In this document: positions 26,153-33,639 of the stretch, in pieces | Layout of the letters: every line of letters starts with the position of its first letter | Position numbering within the stretch: position 1 is the first letter of the stretch | Assembly (NCBI GenBank): GCA_025062375.1 | Contig: JANXAG010000018.1 | Location: 1 to 36,354, forward strand | Reading direction: 5' to 3' | DNA from: Anaerolineae bacterium | GTDB lineage: Bacteria > Chloroflexota > Anaerolineae > SpSt-600 | DNA length: 36,354 bases | Made by a program: the position numbers and the translations under genes | The notes under the pieces: model-generated | What the model saw: the letters and a program-made list of their open reading frames with translations, nothing else | Told to the model about the DNA's origin: nothing | The model's database searches: none

Positions 26153-26857
26153 ATGGCCATAATTCCGGATAAAATCCGCATGTTCCCGATCTTTTCGGGC
26201 CTTGAGGAGAGGACTCTTCAGAGGTTAGCTTCGTTGATAATTGAAAGCTCCGCTCACGCTGGAAAGATCATATTCCTGCAGGGGGAAGAAGCCCGTTATG
26301 TCTACATAGTGGGGCGAGGTATCATCAGAACGCGGCGCGTTTCTCCTGAAGGAAAGGAAATAACGATTGATTACGTTGGGCCCGGCAGAATAATTGATCC
26401 ATTCTCAGCCGCTGATGGAAACCCATACACTATCACGGCCGACGCCCTGACGAACGCAGCTTTATACGCAATAGGCACGGAGGAGTTCCGGCGGATGGTG
26501 GAAGAAGACCGGAAATTGTGCGTCAATTTGCTCAAAGAGCTATCAGGCAGAGCTCGCCGTTTGACCGAGATGGTTGAAGAGATGGCATTGCATACGGTGC
26601 GGACCCGGCTGGCTCGCTTTCTCCTGCAGCAATCCAGGCACAGCGACCAGTACAGGCCCTGGACTCAGACCGAGATCGCTTCTCAGATTGGCACCGTGAG
26701 AGAGATTGTGGGGAGGATTCTACGGGATTTCGCCTCCCAGGGGCTGATAACTCGCCTGGGGGGACGTATTGTTATAGTTGACCGGGATAGACTTATGGAA
26801 ATAGCTCAGCTGGAAGGCTTGGAAAAGGAGGGTTGGAATGGAAATAGAAGCACTTAA
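26153..26857 (+). CDS. Crp/Fnr family transcriptional regulator
   Basis: A 234-aa regulator with an N-terminal cyclic-nucleotide-type effector domain (FLQGEEARYVYIVGRG; ~residues 40-56), a long dimerisation helix and a C-terminal winged helix. The recognition region is WTQTEIASQIGTVREIVGRIL (~169-189). The phosphate-binding cassette is poor: the region around IDPFSAADGNPYTITADAL lacks the Arg and Ser of true cAMP binders. It also lacks the N-terminal Cys cluster of Fnr, so the signal is unknown. Its place amid nitroreductase, rubrerythrin and Fe-S genes suggests redox or oxygen-linked control. The next gene starts 20 bp before its stop. Confidence 0.9.
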   Translation: MAIIPDKIRMFPIFSGLEERTLQRLASLIIESSAHAGKIIFLQGEEARYVYIVGRGIIRTRRVSPEGKEITIDYVGPGRIIDPFSAADGNPYTITADALTNAALYAIGTEEFRRMVEEDRKLCVNLLKELSGRARRLTEMVEEMALHTVRTRLARFLLQQSRHSDQYRPWTQTEIASQIGTVREIVGRILRDFASQGLITRLGGRIVIVDRDRLMEIAQLEGLEKEGWNGNRST

Positions 26858-27347
26858 AGCCATAGAAACGGCCATCAAAATAGAGGAAAAGGGCATAAAG
26901 TTTTATTCCGAAGCGGCGGAGAAGGTGGAAGATCAGGCAGCCCGGAAGATGCTGCGCAACCTGGCTCGGGATGAACAAAACCACCTTTATTTATTTCAAT
27001 CAATCCGTCAATCTCTGCTGGAAGAAGGCAGGTGGCCTACTCTTGAGCCCTTTCCGCTCGGGGAAGTAGCCCAATACATATTTCCCTCCCCTGAAGAAAG
27101 GGAAAAAGTTGAGGTCCCTCGCCACCACCAGGAAATTCTCCGCAGAGGGATGGAGATAGAGAAGGCCTCCATCAAGTTCTATTCAGAGCAGCTAGATAAG
27201 AGCCCCTCGGAAGAAGCACGCAAGGTGTATCAGTTCCTGGTGGAGCAGGAAAAGGGGCACCTGGCTCTCCTCCAGGCGGAGTACGATTACCTGACCCGCA
27301 CCGGCTTCTGGTTTGACTACCAGGAGTTTACCCTGGAAGCGGGATAG
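26838..27347 (+). CDS. Rubrerythrin-like ferritin-fold diiron protein
   Basis: A 169-aa protein with two-fold ferritin-like pattern: EKGIKFYSEAAEKV...DEQNHLYLF in the first half and EKASIKFYSEQ...EQEKGHLALL in the second. Each has the Glu and ExxH-type ligands of a diiron site. It has no C-terminal rubredoxin domain; the rubredoxin in this region is fused to the FTR gene further on. Such proteins reduce peroxide in anaerobes or handle iron. The ATG has AAGGAGGG just upstream and overlaps the Crp/Fnr gene. A hairpin terminator follows its stop directly. Confidence 0.85.
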   Translation: MEIEALKAIETAIKIEEKGIKFYSEAAEKVEDQAARKMLRNLARDEQNHLYLFQSIRQSLLEEGRWPTLEPFPLGEVAQYIFPSPEEREKVEVPRHHQEILRRGMEIEKASIKFYSEQLDKSPSEEARKVYQFLVEQEKGHLALLQAEYDYLTRTGFWFDYQEFTLEAG

Positions 27348-27421: not shown

Positions 27422-27649
27422 ATGAAACTGAAAGTAGATCAGAATCTGTGCATAAAGTGTGGTATGTGTGCTGCGGCTTGCCCTTGCGGGGCTCTTATCC
27501 TCAGCGAGGAAGGGCTTCAGTTTAATTGCCCCTCCGATTGCTCCCTCTATTTGCTTGGGGGGCCCGAGTTCTTCTTCCCCTGCGAGGAAGCATGCCCCAC
27601 AGGAGCCTTAAGTCTTGCTTTTGAGATCGCCAGCTTAAAAGGAGGTTAA
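27422..27649 (+). CDS. Small cysteine-rich ferredoxin
   Basis: A 75-aa Fe-S protein with nine cysteines. The first cluster is canonical: C10-x2-C13-x2-C16-x3-C20-P. The second set is unusual: C36, C40, C54 and C58-P, ending CPTGAL like a normal [4Fe-4S] motif but with a 13-residue insertion. Cys22 is extra. It likely carries one or two [4Fe-4S] clusters and passes electrons to redox partners such as the FTR-like protein downstream. The start is ATG 27422, just after GGGAAGGGGAG; the longer frame would include the promoter. DUF59 follows after one base. Confidence 0.87.
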   Translation: MKLKVDQNLCIKCGMCAAACPCGALILSEEGLQFNCPSDCSLYLLGGPEFFFPCEEACPTGALSLAFEIASLKGG

Positions 27650-27650
27650 T

Positions 27651-27938
27651 ATGGACAGGGTAACTGAAAAACAGGTAAGGGACGCTCTGCGCCAGGTGAT
27701 TGATCCCGAAATCGGGATGGATGTGGTAACTCTGGGGATGATAAGACAGGTCAACATCGGGGAAGGGGGAGAGGTGGAGGTAAAGATGGTGCTAACGGCT
27801 CCTTTCTGCCCTCTGGCTTCCTATCTTGTGGAACAGGTCCGGATGGCTGCAGCCTCAGTCCCCGGAGTTAAGGAGGTCAAAGTCACCCTTCTGGACGAGC
27901 GGTGGGATCCCAGCTGGATAGAGAGATCGGAGCTTTAA
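27651..27938 (+). CDS. DUF59/MIP18 family Fe-S assembly protein (SufT-like)
   Basis: A 95-aa protein of the MIP18/PaaD/SufT group, which acts in maturation of iron-sulfur proteins. The family pattern VIDPEIGMDVVTLGMI (residues ~16-31) and TAPFCPLASYL (~49-59), with the conserved reactive Cys, are present. Length is that of the stand-alone domain. AAGGAGG precedes its start, and it is followed directly by the desulfurase homologue, a pairing that supports a role in cluster building. Regulated with the ferredoxin operon. Confidence 0.92.
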   Translation: MDRVTEKQVRDALRQVIDPEIGMDVVTLGMIRQVNIGEGGEVEVKMVLTAPFCPLASYLVEQVRMAAASVPGVKEVKVTLLDERWDPSWIERSEL

Positions 27939-27951
27939 GGAGGTTTAAGAA

Positions 27952-29130
27952 GTGGAACGTCGTTATGTATATCTTGATAATGCTGCGGCTACCCGCCTTG
28001 ACGAGCGGGTTCTAGAAGCGATGTTGCCCTATTTCTTTGAAATCTACGCCGTGGCCACCTCTGAATTCGGATATTCGCCCGGGATAGAGGCCCGGGAAGC
28101 CCTGGATAAAGCCAGGGCTACAATCGCTGAAAAGCTCGGGGCTTCTCCTGAGGAGTTTATCTTCACATCTGGCGATACCGAATCATCCAACATAGCTCTC
28201 AAAGGGGTAGCTATGGCCCTGAGCCGTAAGAAAGGCCGGCATATAATCGTCTCCAAAATTGAGGATTTCCCCGTGCTCAACACAGCCAAAGCCCTGGAGA
28301 AACAAGGCTTCAAGGTAACCTACCTTGACGTGGACGAATATGGTTTTGTGGACCTAAATCAGCTGTGGGAGTCCATAACGCCCGAGACCATCCTGGTATC
28401 CATTCAGCATGCTAACCAGGAGATTGGGACTATCCAGGACATAAAGGCCATAGGGCAGATATGCCGTGATAAAGGTTGCCTCTTCCATACTGATGCCACT
28501 CACACTTTTACCCGTGTTCCACTGGATGTAAGGGAAATCCCTGTGGACCTGATAACGGTTTCCGCTCACACTATCCACGGCCCCAAGGGCATAGGAGGCC
28601 TCTACATCCGTAAGGGAACTCCTATAGCCAAGTGGATGGATGGAGGATATCAGGAGTTTAACCTGAGGGCGGGGCTGGAAAACATCCCCGGAGCTGTGGG
28701 TTTCGCCAAGGCTGTGGAACTGGTAACCCCGGAGGAGAATCAGAGGCTCCAGCAGATGCGAGATCGCCTGATAGATAGAATTCTTCAAGAGATACCCTAC
28801 ACAACCCTCAATGGCCACCGGTGGAAGAGGCTCCCCCAGAATGCTAACATAACTTTCCACTTTGTGGAAGGAGAATCCATAACCCTGCACCTGGACATGA
28901 GGGGTTTTGCCGTGAGCACGGGCTCGGCTTGTTTCAGCCGTTCTCTTGAGGCAAGTCACGTTATCTTGGGAATCGGCGGAGACCACGAGAGAGCCCATGG
29001 GTCCGTGCGCTTCACTTTTGGCCGATTTAACTCTATGGAAGATGTTGATGCTGTGGTGGAAGCCATCGCTGAGGTTGTGGAAAAACTGAGAGCCATAAGC
29101 CCACTGGGGAAGGAGGTAAGCCATGGCTAA
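27952..29130 (+). CDS. Cysteine desulfurase (NifS/IscS) homologue lacking the PLP lysine
   Basis: A 392-aa class V aminotransferase-fold protein, clearly IscS/NifS-like along its length. It opens YLDNAAATR and keeps the sulfur-carrying Cys loop STGSACFSRSLE (Cys327), the cofactor-contacting Asp181 (HTDATH) and the SVRFTFGRF Arg region. However, the lysine that forms the PLP Schiff base in SxHKxxGPKG is Thr207 here (SAHTIHGPKG; codon ACT at 28570-28572). The PLP-stacking His is Asp105 (IEDFPV), NNE is NQE (155-157) and DATQ is DATH. GTG 27952 has AAGGAGG eight bases upstream. It may be a PLP-independent persulfide carrier or scaffold rather than an ordinary desulfurase; Archaeoglobus IscS is a known lysine-less relative. 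Confidence 0.9.
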   Translation: MERRYVYLDNAAATRLDERVLEAMLPYFFEIYAVATSEFGYSPGIEAREALDKARATIAEKLGASPEEFIFTSGDTESSNIALKGVAMALSRKKGRHIIVSKIEDFPVLNTAKALEKQGFKVTYLDVDEYGFVDLNQLWESITPETILVSIQHANQEIGTIQDIKAIGQICRDKGCLFHTDATHTFTRVPLDVREIPVDLITVSAHTIHGPKGIGGLYIRKGTPIAKWMDGGYQEFNLRAGLENIPGAVGFAKAVELVTPEENQRLQQMRDRLIDRILQEIPYTTLNGHRWKRLPQNANITFHFVEGESITLHLDMRGFAVSTGSACFSRSLEASHVILGIGGDHERAHGSVRFTFGRFNSMEDVDAVVEAIAEVVEKLRAISPLGKEVSHG

Positions 29131-29563
29131 TCCATACGTCCTTGAAGCTCTCAAAAAAGCCCTCGCTGTTGAACTGAGCGCGATAGAGATTTACTCCGCC
29201 CATGCTAAAGCTATTCAGGAAGAGTATATAGCCGAAGGTGTGAGGGCGATTCTAGAGGTGGAGAAGCGCCACGCTCAGGAACTTACCGAGCGCATCAGGG
29301 CACTGGGAGATACCCCCATCGAGCCCGGAGGGAAAGAAACCATCCTGGGACGAGCTATTGGAGCCGCTTCCGCCCACGCTACTACCAGAGAGATGCTGGA
29401 GCTGGAACTGAGGGAAGAGCAGCTGGCCATTAAGGACTACGCTACCTTCATAGCCGAAATCACAGGCGACGAGGAAACGGTTGCTCTTATGGAAAGGCAC
29501 CTTAAGGATGAGATCGATCACGCCAAATGGCTTAAAAGGCAAATCGCTTCTCTTGGCGGATAA
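29123..29563 (+). CDS. Ferritin-like diiron protein
   Basis: A 146-aa four-helix ferritin-fold protein, distinct from the rubrerythrin-like gene 2 kb upstream. Diiron-ligand motifs are ELSAIEIYSAH (helix 1), EVEKRHAQEL (helix 2, ExxRH), ELREEQLAIKDY (helix 3) and HLKDEIDHAKWL (helix 4, ExxDH). Bacterioferritin- and Dps-like relatives store or oxidise iron. It overlaps the desulfurase homologue by 8 bp, which places iron handling directly alongside Fe-S assembly. No haem-ligand Met can be assigned. Confidence 0.87.
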   Translation: MANPYVLEALKKALAVELSAIEIYSAHAKAIQEEYIAEGVRAILEVEKRHAQELTERIRALGDTPIEPGGKETILGRAIGAASAHATTREMLELELREEQLAIKDYATFIAEITGDEETVALMERHLKDEIDHAKWLKRQIASLGG

Positions 29564-29566
29564 AAC

Positions 29567-29818
29567 ATGCGGAAGATTAAATTCTATGCTCTCAGCACCT
29601 GCGGGTGGTGCCGCCGGACGAAAAAGCTCTTGGATGAAAACGGGGCAGACTACGAGCTGATCTACGTGGACCTGCTTCAGGGGGAGGAGCAGAAAAAGGC
29701 TCTGGAAGAAGTGAGCAGATGGAATCCCCGCCTCTCCTTTCCCACACTGGTTCTGGACAATGAGGAAGCGATAATAGGTTACGATGAAGCCCGCATAAAG
29801 GAGGCTCTCGGATTGTGA
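29567..29818 (+). CDS. Glutaredoxin-like protein (CGWC)
   Basis: An 83-aa thioredoxin-fold protein with active site C12-G-W-C15, the cis-proline in FPTLVL (~residues 58-63) and a GYDEARIKEAL C-terminal helix. CGWC is nearer thioredoxin-style than the CPYC of classical glutaredoxins. The next gene encodes an FTR catalytic subunit, which reduces disulfides in thioredoxin-fold partners, so this protein is its probable substrate. The stop overlaps the next start (GTGA). Confidence 0.92.
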   Translation: MRKIKFYALSTCGWCRRTKKLLDENGADYELIYVDLLQGEEQKKALEEVSRWNPRLSFPTLVLDNEEAIIGYDEARIKEALGL

Positions 29819-30303
29819 GCGAGAGGTCACAAGAAGCGCTGGAGCTCTACGAACGCCTGCGGCGGGAGGCAGAATCCTCCGGTTATTACCTCAATCCTGA
29901 CCTGGAACTGGTGCTGGACCTGATGGAAGGTCTCGTTACCAATCTGAAGCGCTACGGCTACATGGCCTGCCCCTGCCGCTTAGCTTCTGGAGTGCGGGAG
30001 AAGGACCTGGATATAATATGCCCCTGCGATTACCGCGATGCGGACCTGGAGGAATACGGGGCTTGCTATTGCGGTCTGTATGTATCCGAAGAAGTAGCGC
30101 AGGGCAGGAAAAAAGCCAGCCCCGTTCCTGAAAGGAGGGGCACAGTCCTTCTAAAGGCTGAGGAGGAAAAACCCGTCTTCAGCGGTAAAGGAATGCCTGT
30201 GTGGCGCTGCAAAGTCTGCGGGTATCTCTGCGCTAGGCCTTCTCCACCCCTCAAGTGCCCTATCTGCAAGGCCGATAAGGACCGCTTTGAACGCTTTGCC
30301 TAA
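29815..30303 (+). CDS. Ferredoxin:thioredoxin reductase catalytic subunit fused to rubredoxin
   Basis: A 162-aa two-domain protein. The N-terminal part is the FTR catalytic (beta) subunit, which uses a [4Fe-4S] cluster to reduce a disulfide: CPC at C52/C54, CPC at C69/C71 and CYC at C84/C86. In plant-type FTR the last motif is CHC, so the cluster-proximal His is Tyr here. The C-terminal part is a rubredoxin, WRCKVCGYLC (C132, C135) and KCPICKADKDRFERF (C148, C151). No FTR alpha subunit is present, as in archaeal-type systems. GTG 29815 overlaps the glutaredoxin stop. Electrons probably flow from ferredoxin or rubredoxin to the CGWC partner; this is inference. The 3' end overlaps tyrS by four bases. 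Confidence 0.92.
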   Translation: MSERSQEALELYERLRREAESSGYYLNPDLELVLDLMEGLVTNLKRYGYMACPCRLASGVREKDLDIICPCDYRDADLEEYGACYCGLYVSEEVAQGRKKASPVPERRGTVLLKAEEEKPVFSGKGMPVWRCKVCGYLCARPSPPLKCPICKADKDRFERFA

Positions 30304-31661: not shown

Positions 31662-33639
31662 TCAAATCTCCTGGTGCAATTTTGCTTCCACCCACCGTTG
31701 CATCAGCGGAACCTGAAAGCGATATGTTCCACTGCAGGTTCCAGCACCTCTTTATGGACCAGCCGCTGGGCCACCAGCTGCAAGTTTTCCGGCACTTCCT
31801 CACCCCGCACCACGGCTGATAGCACTTTCTGTTGCTCCGGCGTCAAGCTGAACCAGAACTCCCGGAAGAACTCGTGGCCCCGCTCAAAGATTTCCGGAAT
31901 CACTGCTTCCACGTCCTCCGGCGGTTGAGGTGTTCCACCAGTTCGTAACCGGTCAACTGGACCAGGTAAGGCTGACCCCGAGTGAGGCGGACGATGGCTT
32001 CCACCGCCTCGTCCTCGTAGATGTCCGGGAAATCCTGAACGGGCCTGCGGATCAGCGCTCGGGCGTCCTCCTCCCGGAGATAACTAACTAGCACCGCACG
32101 AGTGTTGATCAGGTAGTCGCTCCAGTAGGGGGCCAGTTCGTCCAGCATGTGGGAGCCGGAGAACAGAAGGGCCCACCGGGGCCGGTGCTGCATCACGTGC
32201 CGCAGAAAGTTCAGGGGCATCCGGCTCCCCGTCTCCCGGACTACCTCCTCCAGTCGCGCAGATTAGGGTAAGCAGAGCACAAGAGTCCGGGTCGCCGGTG
32301 ATTCTTTCCACCCGGTCCATCCATTTCTGTAGGGCGATAAAGGGGTTTTCGGCCAGGGTGCGGGGTCTAGATACGGCAGGTGGAAGTTGCGGGCGCGCCG
32401 GGCGGATTCCACTATCTGAACGGCCAGATACTCGGCCAGGCCTTTCAGGGTAGTGGCCGTCAACCCCTGAACATCCACAAAGAGGGGAAGGATCTCCGGC
32501 CCCACCCGCAGAGGGAGATATTTCAGGGCCGACGTTTTCCCCGTCCTCCGCCCGCCGTAGAGGAGGATGACCGGCTTCACATCGGAGAGGGCCAGGGTTC
32601 CGATCTCGCGGAAAATGTCCCCCCGCCCCCGGAACCGCTCCCCCGCCGTCTCCGGGTCCAGCGGCGGGCCGGCGATGTAGACCTGGGGGATTTCCGGGGA
32701 GGAGCGGGCCCGCTCCTCCAGCGTCCACAGCGCGGGCTCCAGAATCCGCAGCCAGCGGTCTACGATTTCCCCGTAGGCGGTGGCGAAGCGGGGGGATTCG
32801 GTCGCGAGGCTCTCCCGCAACTCCGCCCGCCAGTAAAGGGATTCTTCTTCCTGCGCGGCCCGCTGCTGGTTGGTGGAAGTAATCAAGTAATCTATCATCT
32901 GCTGGGCGGCGGCCTGGTTCTCCCGGTAGGCGCGGGCGATGAATTCGCCCATAAAGGGCAGTGGGAGAATGATAAGTTCATTAAAGCGAGGGGGGAGGTA
33001 GCGGAGCCAGCGGGAGTAGCGGCCCGGCCGGGCCATGAGCGCCAAACCGAACATCCAGAGCAGTTTCGGCAGCCAGAAATAGACCCGAAGCACTCCCAGA
33101 GTCCACGCCACGCCGACCGCCACGCCAAACGCTATAAACAACCAGTCTGCCACCAGGGGAAGCCAGGCCTGCAGCAGCCCGAGAGCGACATCGGGCAAAA
33201 GGGGAAGCAAGCGATTCAGCAGAGTGGGCGAAAACTGCAAAAGACCGCCCAACACAAAAACCAAAATGGAAGTAACCACCAGGAAGCGGAAAATCCACTT
33301 CTCCGGAGCGCTTACTATGGGACTCCGTGTAAACCACAAGCCCGCCCACCAGCCCAGAAGAAAGCGGAAACTCCAGGACCAGGCAAAGGGCCCGGCGGCG
33401 AAGAGAGGGGCGAGGATGGGAACGGTTGCGCTGAGCCACCACACTTGCCCCGCATAGTGGCGCAGGCGAGGGTTGCTGGAAAAGCGGGCGCGGTAACGGA
33501 AAGGGTTCTCGTCTATACCCAGGTCAGGGTCAATCTCCCACAGCCAGTCACTGAAGGTGTAGGGCCTGAAGTAGGCCCAGTAGAGGAGCCGGGCGCACTC
33601 GGCGATATAGGTCCGGAGGCTTTCCCATCGGCCTGCCAT
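31662..33639 (-). pseudogene. Decayed membrane-anchored nSTAND/AAA-type ATPase (gene B)
   Basis: The original gene encoded an N-terminal membrane part with three to four hydrophobic segments (~residues 55-205), then an ATPase: a PPLDPETAGERFRGR entry and Walker A GGRRTGKTSAL. The Walker B region is damaged. The frame shifts at a C-run (32362-32365), reading AENPFIALQKWMDRVE out of frame, and returns near 32295. It then meets an in-frame TAA (32263-32265) where LVLCL-DE should be. The reading resumes with ARLEEVVRETGSRMPLNFLRHVMQ. Further shifts occur near 31925 and 31712, after which FQVPLMQRWVEAKLHQEI closes the frame at 31662. The stop plus several indels argue for a pseudogene. ATG 33639 has GGAGGG upstream and follows gene A by five bases. 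Confidence 0.72.

Follow-up and report, generated by a model that had tools for sequence, protein, structure and literature searches.

The IscS of Archaeoglobus fulgidus, a cysteine desulfurase homologue from which the PLP lysine is missing, has reportedly been shown to be without desulfurase activity. It is the best PDB match by sequence (4eb5, 4eb7, and 4hvk) to NifS-T, the protein described here. The initial annotation of NifS-T had drawn the parallel with this lysine-less relative correctly; the stacking His is, however, kept in A. fulgidus. Numbered on E. coli IscS, the A. fulgidus protein has Asp at the lysine, Asn at H205, Ala at Q183, and Leu at R354, and it retains H104 and N155. The A. 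fulgidus genome in our set (G580, 100% identity to its IscS sequence) carries two lysine-less IscS genes (L209 and L210) beside genes for DsrE and IscU, one copy being also beside TusA. Within the same type, Glu replaces the lysine in one protein, L217, and several members (L216, L217, L223, L224, L231, L234, and L235) have Asn for the PLP-N1 Asp (HVNATAAA), which may be a further sign of PLP loss. IscS1 of M. acetivorans (MA0808) is likewise reported to be lysine-less, with the motif STGSACFS, and is encoded beside IscU1 (MA0807, 24.2 kDa) and four genes annotated without a function; it formed inclusion bodies in E. coli and is uncharacterised (PMC7585200). In E. coli, R27 of TusA is needed for binding to IscS, and the IscS–TusA crystal places the two cysteine sulfurs about 4 Å apart, so that sulfur exchange between them is geometrically possible (PMC2854127).

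The window, that is, the whole 36,354-nucleotide stretch of Anaerolineae DNA that was analysed, encodes NifS-T at 27952–29130 on the forward strand as a 392-residue open reading frame with a GTG start and no internal stop; the sequence AAGGAGG lies 5' of the GTG at 27937–27943. The protein matches Pfam Aminotran_5 (E 2e-69), and its scores fall under the NCBIfam equivalog cut-offs (458.5 versus 530.75 for NifS and 379.3 versus 643.2 for IscS). Its reading as IscS/NifS-like from end to end is borne out by homology to the cysteine desulfurases over the full length with the same fold, the AlphaFold2 model superposing on NFS1, IscS, and A. fulgidus IscS with TM values of about 0.9. The predicted model (pLDDT 85.8, falling below 50 at residues 326–334, which makes the Cys loop low-confidence) is thus good evidence for the fold but says nothing about a cofactor.

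In the alignment to E. coli IscS (L170), Thr207 (codon ACT, 28570–28572) stands where that enzyme has its PLP lysine, K206. Three further replacements line the pocket: Asp105 (28264–28266) for the PLP-stacking H104, Gln156 (28417–28419) for N155 (NNE to NQE), and His184 (28501–28503) for Q183 (DATQ to DATH), conserved in 88, 89, and 90, respectively, of 91 non-identical family sequences. All of these had been correctly named from the sequence at the outset; the mapping adds a fifth, T243 to L242. Retained are S203, H205, D180, R354, and C328 (S204, H206, D181, R353, and C327 in NifS-T). The last of these, Cys327 (28930–28932), lies in the mobile loop STGSACFSRS and is our proposed persulfide carrier; the loop is indeed kept, with Cys in 91/91 sequences and G324–S329 also invariant.

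A search of related genomes and GTDB contigs gave 99 family members with identities of 62–100%. Going by record titles, these bacteria and archaea represent about 13 phyla: Chloroflexota, several archaeal phyla (methanogens, Thermoplasmatota, and Heimdallarchaeota), Bacillota, Thermodesulfobacteriota, Myxococcota, Actinomycetota, Atribacterota, Spirochaetota, Nitrospirota, and others. Many are metagenome-assembled genomes (MAGs), for which misbinning is possible, and there are isolates among them: Methanolobus, Methanococcoides, Methanohalophilus, and Peptoclostridium litorale. Within Chloroflexota, the gene is patchy (12/399 genomes). The lysine position holds Thr in 87 members, Leu in 8, Val in 2, Ala in 1, and Met in 1, and Lys in 0/99. 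Because the loss is common to all 99, we reject sequencing error, a pseudogene, and decay as explanations; the coherent clade spanning many phyla, the linked pocket changes, and the invariant Cys loop agree with the functional divergence first proposed. The clade is thus real and conserved, and it is broader than first noted.

A tree of the lysine-less members with their gene neighbours had been suggested as a check. In our trees, NifS-T and its relatives form one clade (the T clade, SH-aLRT 100), separate from the A. fulgidus-type group with Asp or Glu; the linkage to TusA and DsrE described below emerged from the neighbours. The A. fulgidus-type group is its sister in two trees, with SH-aLRT of 88 and 81, both below the starred level of support, so the lysine may have been lost once or twice. 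We regard the NifS-T family as a new clade within a known kind, the lysine-less IscS homologues.

The conservation pattern also bears on whether the pocket has a new function. A catalytic role for Thr207 is unlikely because Leu, Val, Ala, and Met are tolerated there. A broader proposal is that D105, H184, H206, D181, and R353, conserved in 88–91 of the 91 sequences, form a new active site in which a ligand (PLP, PMP, a metal, or something else) is held with no Schiff base and a different reaction is carried out. D181 and R353 correspond to the residues for PLP N1 and for the substrate carboxylate; that both are invariant (91/91 each) is unexpected if the protein binds no PLP-like or amino-acid ligand, and this counts against the relay proposed below. 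Against such a site, however, the lysine position drifts among five residues, H206 or D105 is missing in L013, L014, L015, and L178, and the phosphate-site Thr243 position is variable (L in 57, V in 14, and I in 6 of the 91 sequences); we consider it improbable.

In the window, NifS-T belongs to a tight run of forward-strand genes: a ferredoxin-like protein of 75 residues (27422–27649; a similar gene lies upstream of NifS-T in several Anaerolineae), a stand-alone DUF59 protein (FeS_assembly_P, E 4.7e-22; 27651–27938, ending 13 bases upstream of NifS-T), NifS-T itself, a ferritin/rubrerythrin-like protein (29123–29563, an 8-base overlap with NifS-T), a YruB-type glutaredoxin-like protein (29567–29818), and a fusion of the ferredoxin:thioredoxin reductase catalytic chain to rubredoxin (29815–30303), which overlaps the glutaredoxin gene. 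The last two recur near NifS-T at L045, L062, and L077, which suggests that they supply reductant. Upstream in the same gene run is a rubrerythrin-like protein (26838–27347, +), a putative member of the system. A CRP/FNR-family regulator (26153–26857, +) with a putative regulatory link also lies upstream, as does a similar gene at L009 and L033. Elsewhere in the window, the reverse strand at 31703–33639 reads like a frameshift-broken ATPase-type protein (a frame at 32263–33639 followed by short frames at 31900–32220 and 31703–31912); a Pfam search with the pieces gave no match.

From this operon, the initial annotation had correctly described DUF59 and ferritin-like genes as flanking NifS-T and had proposed a PLP-independent sulfur carrier, persulfide acceptor, or Fe–S scaffold. 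The direction of that proposal is favoured by our results; the two neighbours taken as the clue to it are not the informative ones. The window's form of the ferritin-like gene is found at no other NifS-T locus, a different ferritin-like gene occupying the same place at L012 and L033, and we have discarded it as the key partner. Stand-alone DUF59 was likewise set aside, as DUF59 signals elsewhere mostly come from a domain that is fused to the IscU partner in the relatives. At L012, the gene directly upstream of NifS-T (411–1475, +) encodes a serine acetyltransferase-like protein (hexapeptide repeats) with a C-terminal DUF59 domain.

The informative partners are instead TusA, DsrE, and IscU-DUF59, and they are seen in the relatives. 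Clustering of the open reading frames around 92 loci and the window revealed a conserved set of TusA, a DsrE-like protein, NifS-T, and IscU with a C-terminal DUF59-like fusion domain, in the order TusA-DsrE-NifS-IscU at most loci and NifS-(x)-IscU-TusA-DsrE in Anaerolineae. With neighbours counted as linked when they share the strand and lie no more than 1.5 kb away, the T clade is linked to TusA at 87/98 loci, to DsrE at 83/98, and to IscU at 91/98; the corresponding figures for the A. fulgidus-type D clade, where flanks are short, are 27/31, 17/31, and 31/31. Neither TusA nor DsrE lies beside any of the 42 lysine-bearing NifS/IscS homologues by the same measure (0/42 each), and IscU is beside 23 of them. 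The Fisher p value for TusA in this first set is 1e-27, which, because the rows are related, measures the separation and not the number of independent events. A test sample of 39 further archaeal loci, chosen blind to the residue, behaved in the same way: 12 were lysine-less (11 Asp and 1 Glu), all 12 with both TusA and DsrE beside them, and of the 27 lysine-bearing loci none had either. Over both sets, TusA accompanies 126/141 lysine-less genes and DsrE 112/141, compared with 0/69 lysine-bearing ones; since the loci are related, these counts stand for one or a few evolutionary events and not 141. The exclusive linkage of lysine loss to TusA and DsrE is a new and strong genomic rule in our sample, and we found no paper that ties the two together in the literature searched, most subscription papers being outside its scope.

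The partner proteins retain the residues with which sulfur could be handled. The CPxP cysteine of TusA is present in 80/80 sequences, as is the arginine matching E. coli R27, and the equivalent of R31 is present in 69/80. DsrE has one invariant cysteine (72/72), its sole conserved one; the Allochromatium DsrE is persulfurated by sulfide alone (PMC3397948). IscU keeps C36, D38, C63, H106, and C107 in 85/85.

Because the lysine is missing and the gene is nearly always beside those for TusA, DsrE, and IscU, NifS-T probably passes on sulfur received from other proteins. We suggest, with a probability of roughly 0.6, that it is a PLP-independent relay or scaffold subunit through which persulfide sulfur moves from TusA/DsrE to Cys327 and then to IscU. 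The PLP step would have been given up and the persulfide step retained. TusA and DsrE would gather sulfane sulfur, from a canonical desulfurase where one is present or as sulfide-derived sulfur or polysulfide, and load it onto Cys327; the mobile loop would then deliver the sulfur for Fe–S cluster building on IscU or IscU-DUF59. Like its counterpart in the A. fulgidus IscS–IscU complex, Cys327 may also bind the cluster itself. While the loss of the lysine, the invariant cysteines, and the linkage are observed, we infer which way sulfur flows, that PLP is absent, and that the protein serves Fe–S assembly.

The A. fulgidus structures 4eb5 and 4eb7 have also given rise to another proposal, which for NifS-T would mean a purely structural scaffold that holds IscU, with Cys327 as a cluster ligand, free sulfide entering, and TusA and DsrE serving some other use of sulfur. 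The named hosts of NifS-T are anaerobes, many of them from sediments, which fits. We think this unlikely, however, as it leaves unexplained the exclusive TusA–DsrE linkage of two lysine-less groups.

The established flow in E. coli, from IscS to TusA to TusBCD (PMC2854127, PMC3397948), is the reverse of the one we propose for NifS-T and counts against the relay. If the same direction applied here, a canonical desulfurase would load NifS-T, which would pass sulfur to TusA and DsrE, to be used in tRNA thiolation or elsewhere, and IscU would be a further recipient. The check for a canonical desulfurase called for by the initial annotation did find one in the source genome (L002, on G000:C36), lysine-bearing with the motif SGHKFYAPKG, along with another desulfurase-family protein (L003), and NifS-T coexists with a canonical enzyme in most of the 26 genomes tested. 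NifS-T is thus no stand-in for an absent desulfurase in its source genome. Yet in five of the 26 (G072, G074, G080, G084, and G085, all MAGs and possibly incomplete), NifS-T is the sole cysteine-desulfurase-like protein at E <= 1e-15, IscU linkage is as frequent as TusA linkage, and no lysine-bearing IscS in our sample is linked to TusA, although such an enzyme is what normally supplies TusA; we give the reversed flow little credence. In the isolate Methanococcoides vulcani (G063), the only other homologues are two distant type II proteins, both lysine-bearing.

The source genome itself is an imperfect example of the relay, and its broken-up cluster, its canonical desulfurase, and the lack of an operon-type DsrE count against our proposal. 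TusA, DsrE, and IscU do not lie beside NifS-T within the window; IscU-DUF59 (L114) and an operon-type TusA (L116) are each on another contig, and the search for DsrE in this genome found only a DsrE2-type protein. Most of the parts of the relay therefore exist there, on separate contigs, and since a relative of the same genus (L008) has the whole cluster together, the arrangement in the window looks like dispersal. The genome also holds a second TusA–DsrE2 pair (L115, 1492–2253, reverse strand) beside a membrane protein like the nitrate-reductase gamma chain; this pair is a possible upstream source of sulfur.

More tentatively, and at odds that we put somewhat short of even, the family may represent a widespread and hitherto unrecognised PLP- and cysteine-independent Fe–S assembly system of anaerobes. 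Inorganic sulfane sulfur would be taken up by TusA and DsrE and passed by a catalytically dead desulfurase to IscU, with or without its DUF59 domain. If so, the site of cluster assembly would do without PLP chemistry on cysteine, which would matter for methanogens and for metabolism where sulfide is abundant, and the label 'cysteine desulfurase' would be wrong for the whole clade. That genes without the lysine are so strictly associated with TusA and DsrE, in both Bacteria and Archaea, offers a specific, testable answer to how A. fulgidus IscS is supplied with sulfur.

In comparison with the described systems, NifS-T shares with A. fulgidus IscS the missing lysine, the Cys loop, and, at most loci of its clade, an adjoining IscU. 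It lacks the marks of that type (Asp or Glu at the lysine, Asn at H205, and loss of R354), and the A. fulgidus protein, about 46% identical to NifS-T by structural alignment, belongs to a separate clade and has an IscU with no DUF59 fusion. IscS1 and IscU1 of M. acetivorans very probably belong to the same family as NifS-T, judging from their published description, and the 24.2 kDa of IscU1 fits the size of an IscU-DUF59 fusion. The minimal iron–sulfur (MIS) pair MisS–MisU is a minimal archaeal IscS–IscU system (PMC12442378), whose MisS is described as a cysteine desulfurase. In the IscS–TusA–TusBCD relay of E. coli, the same protein families exchange persulfide, and the TusA proteins found here keep the IscS-binding arginines; the E. 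coli IscS is, however, an active PLP enzyme and the donor, unlike the role that we propose for NifS-T.
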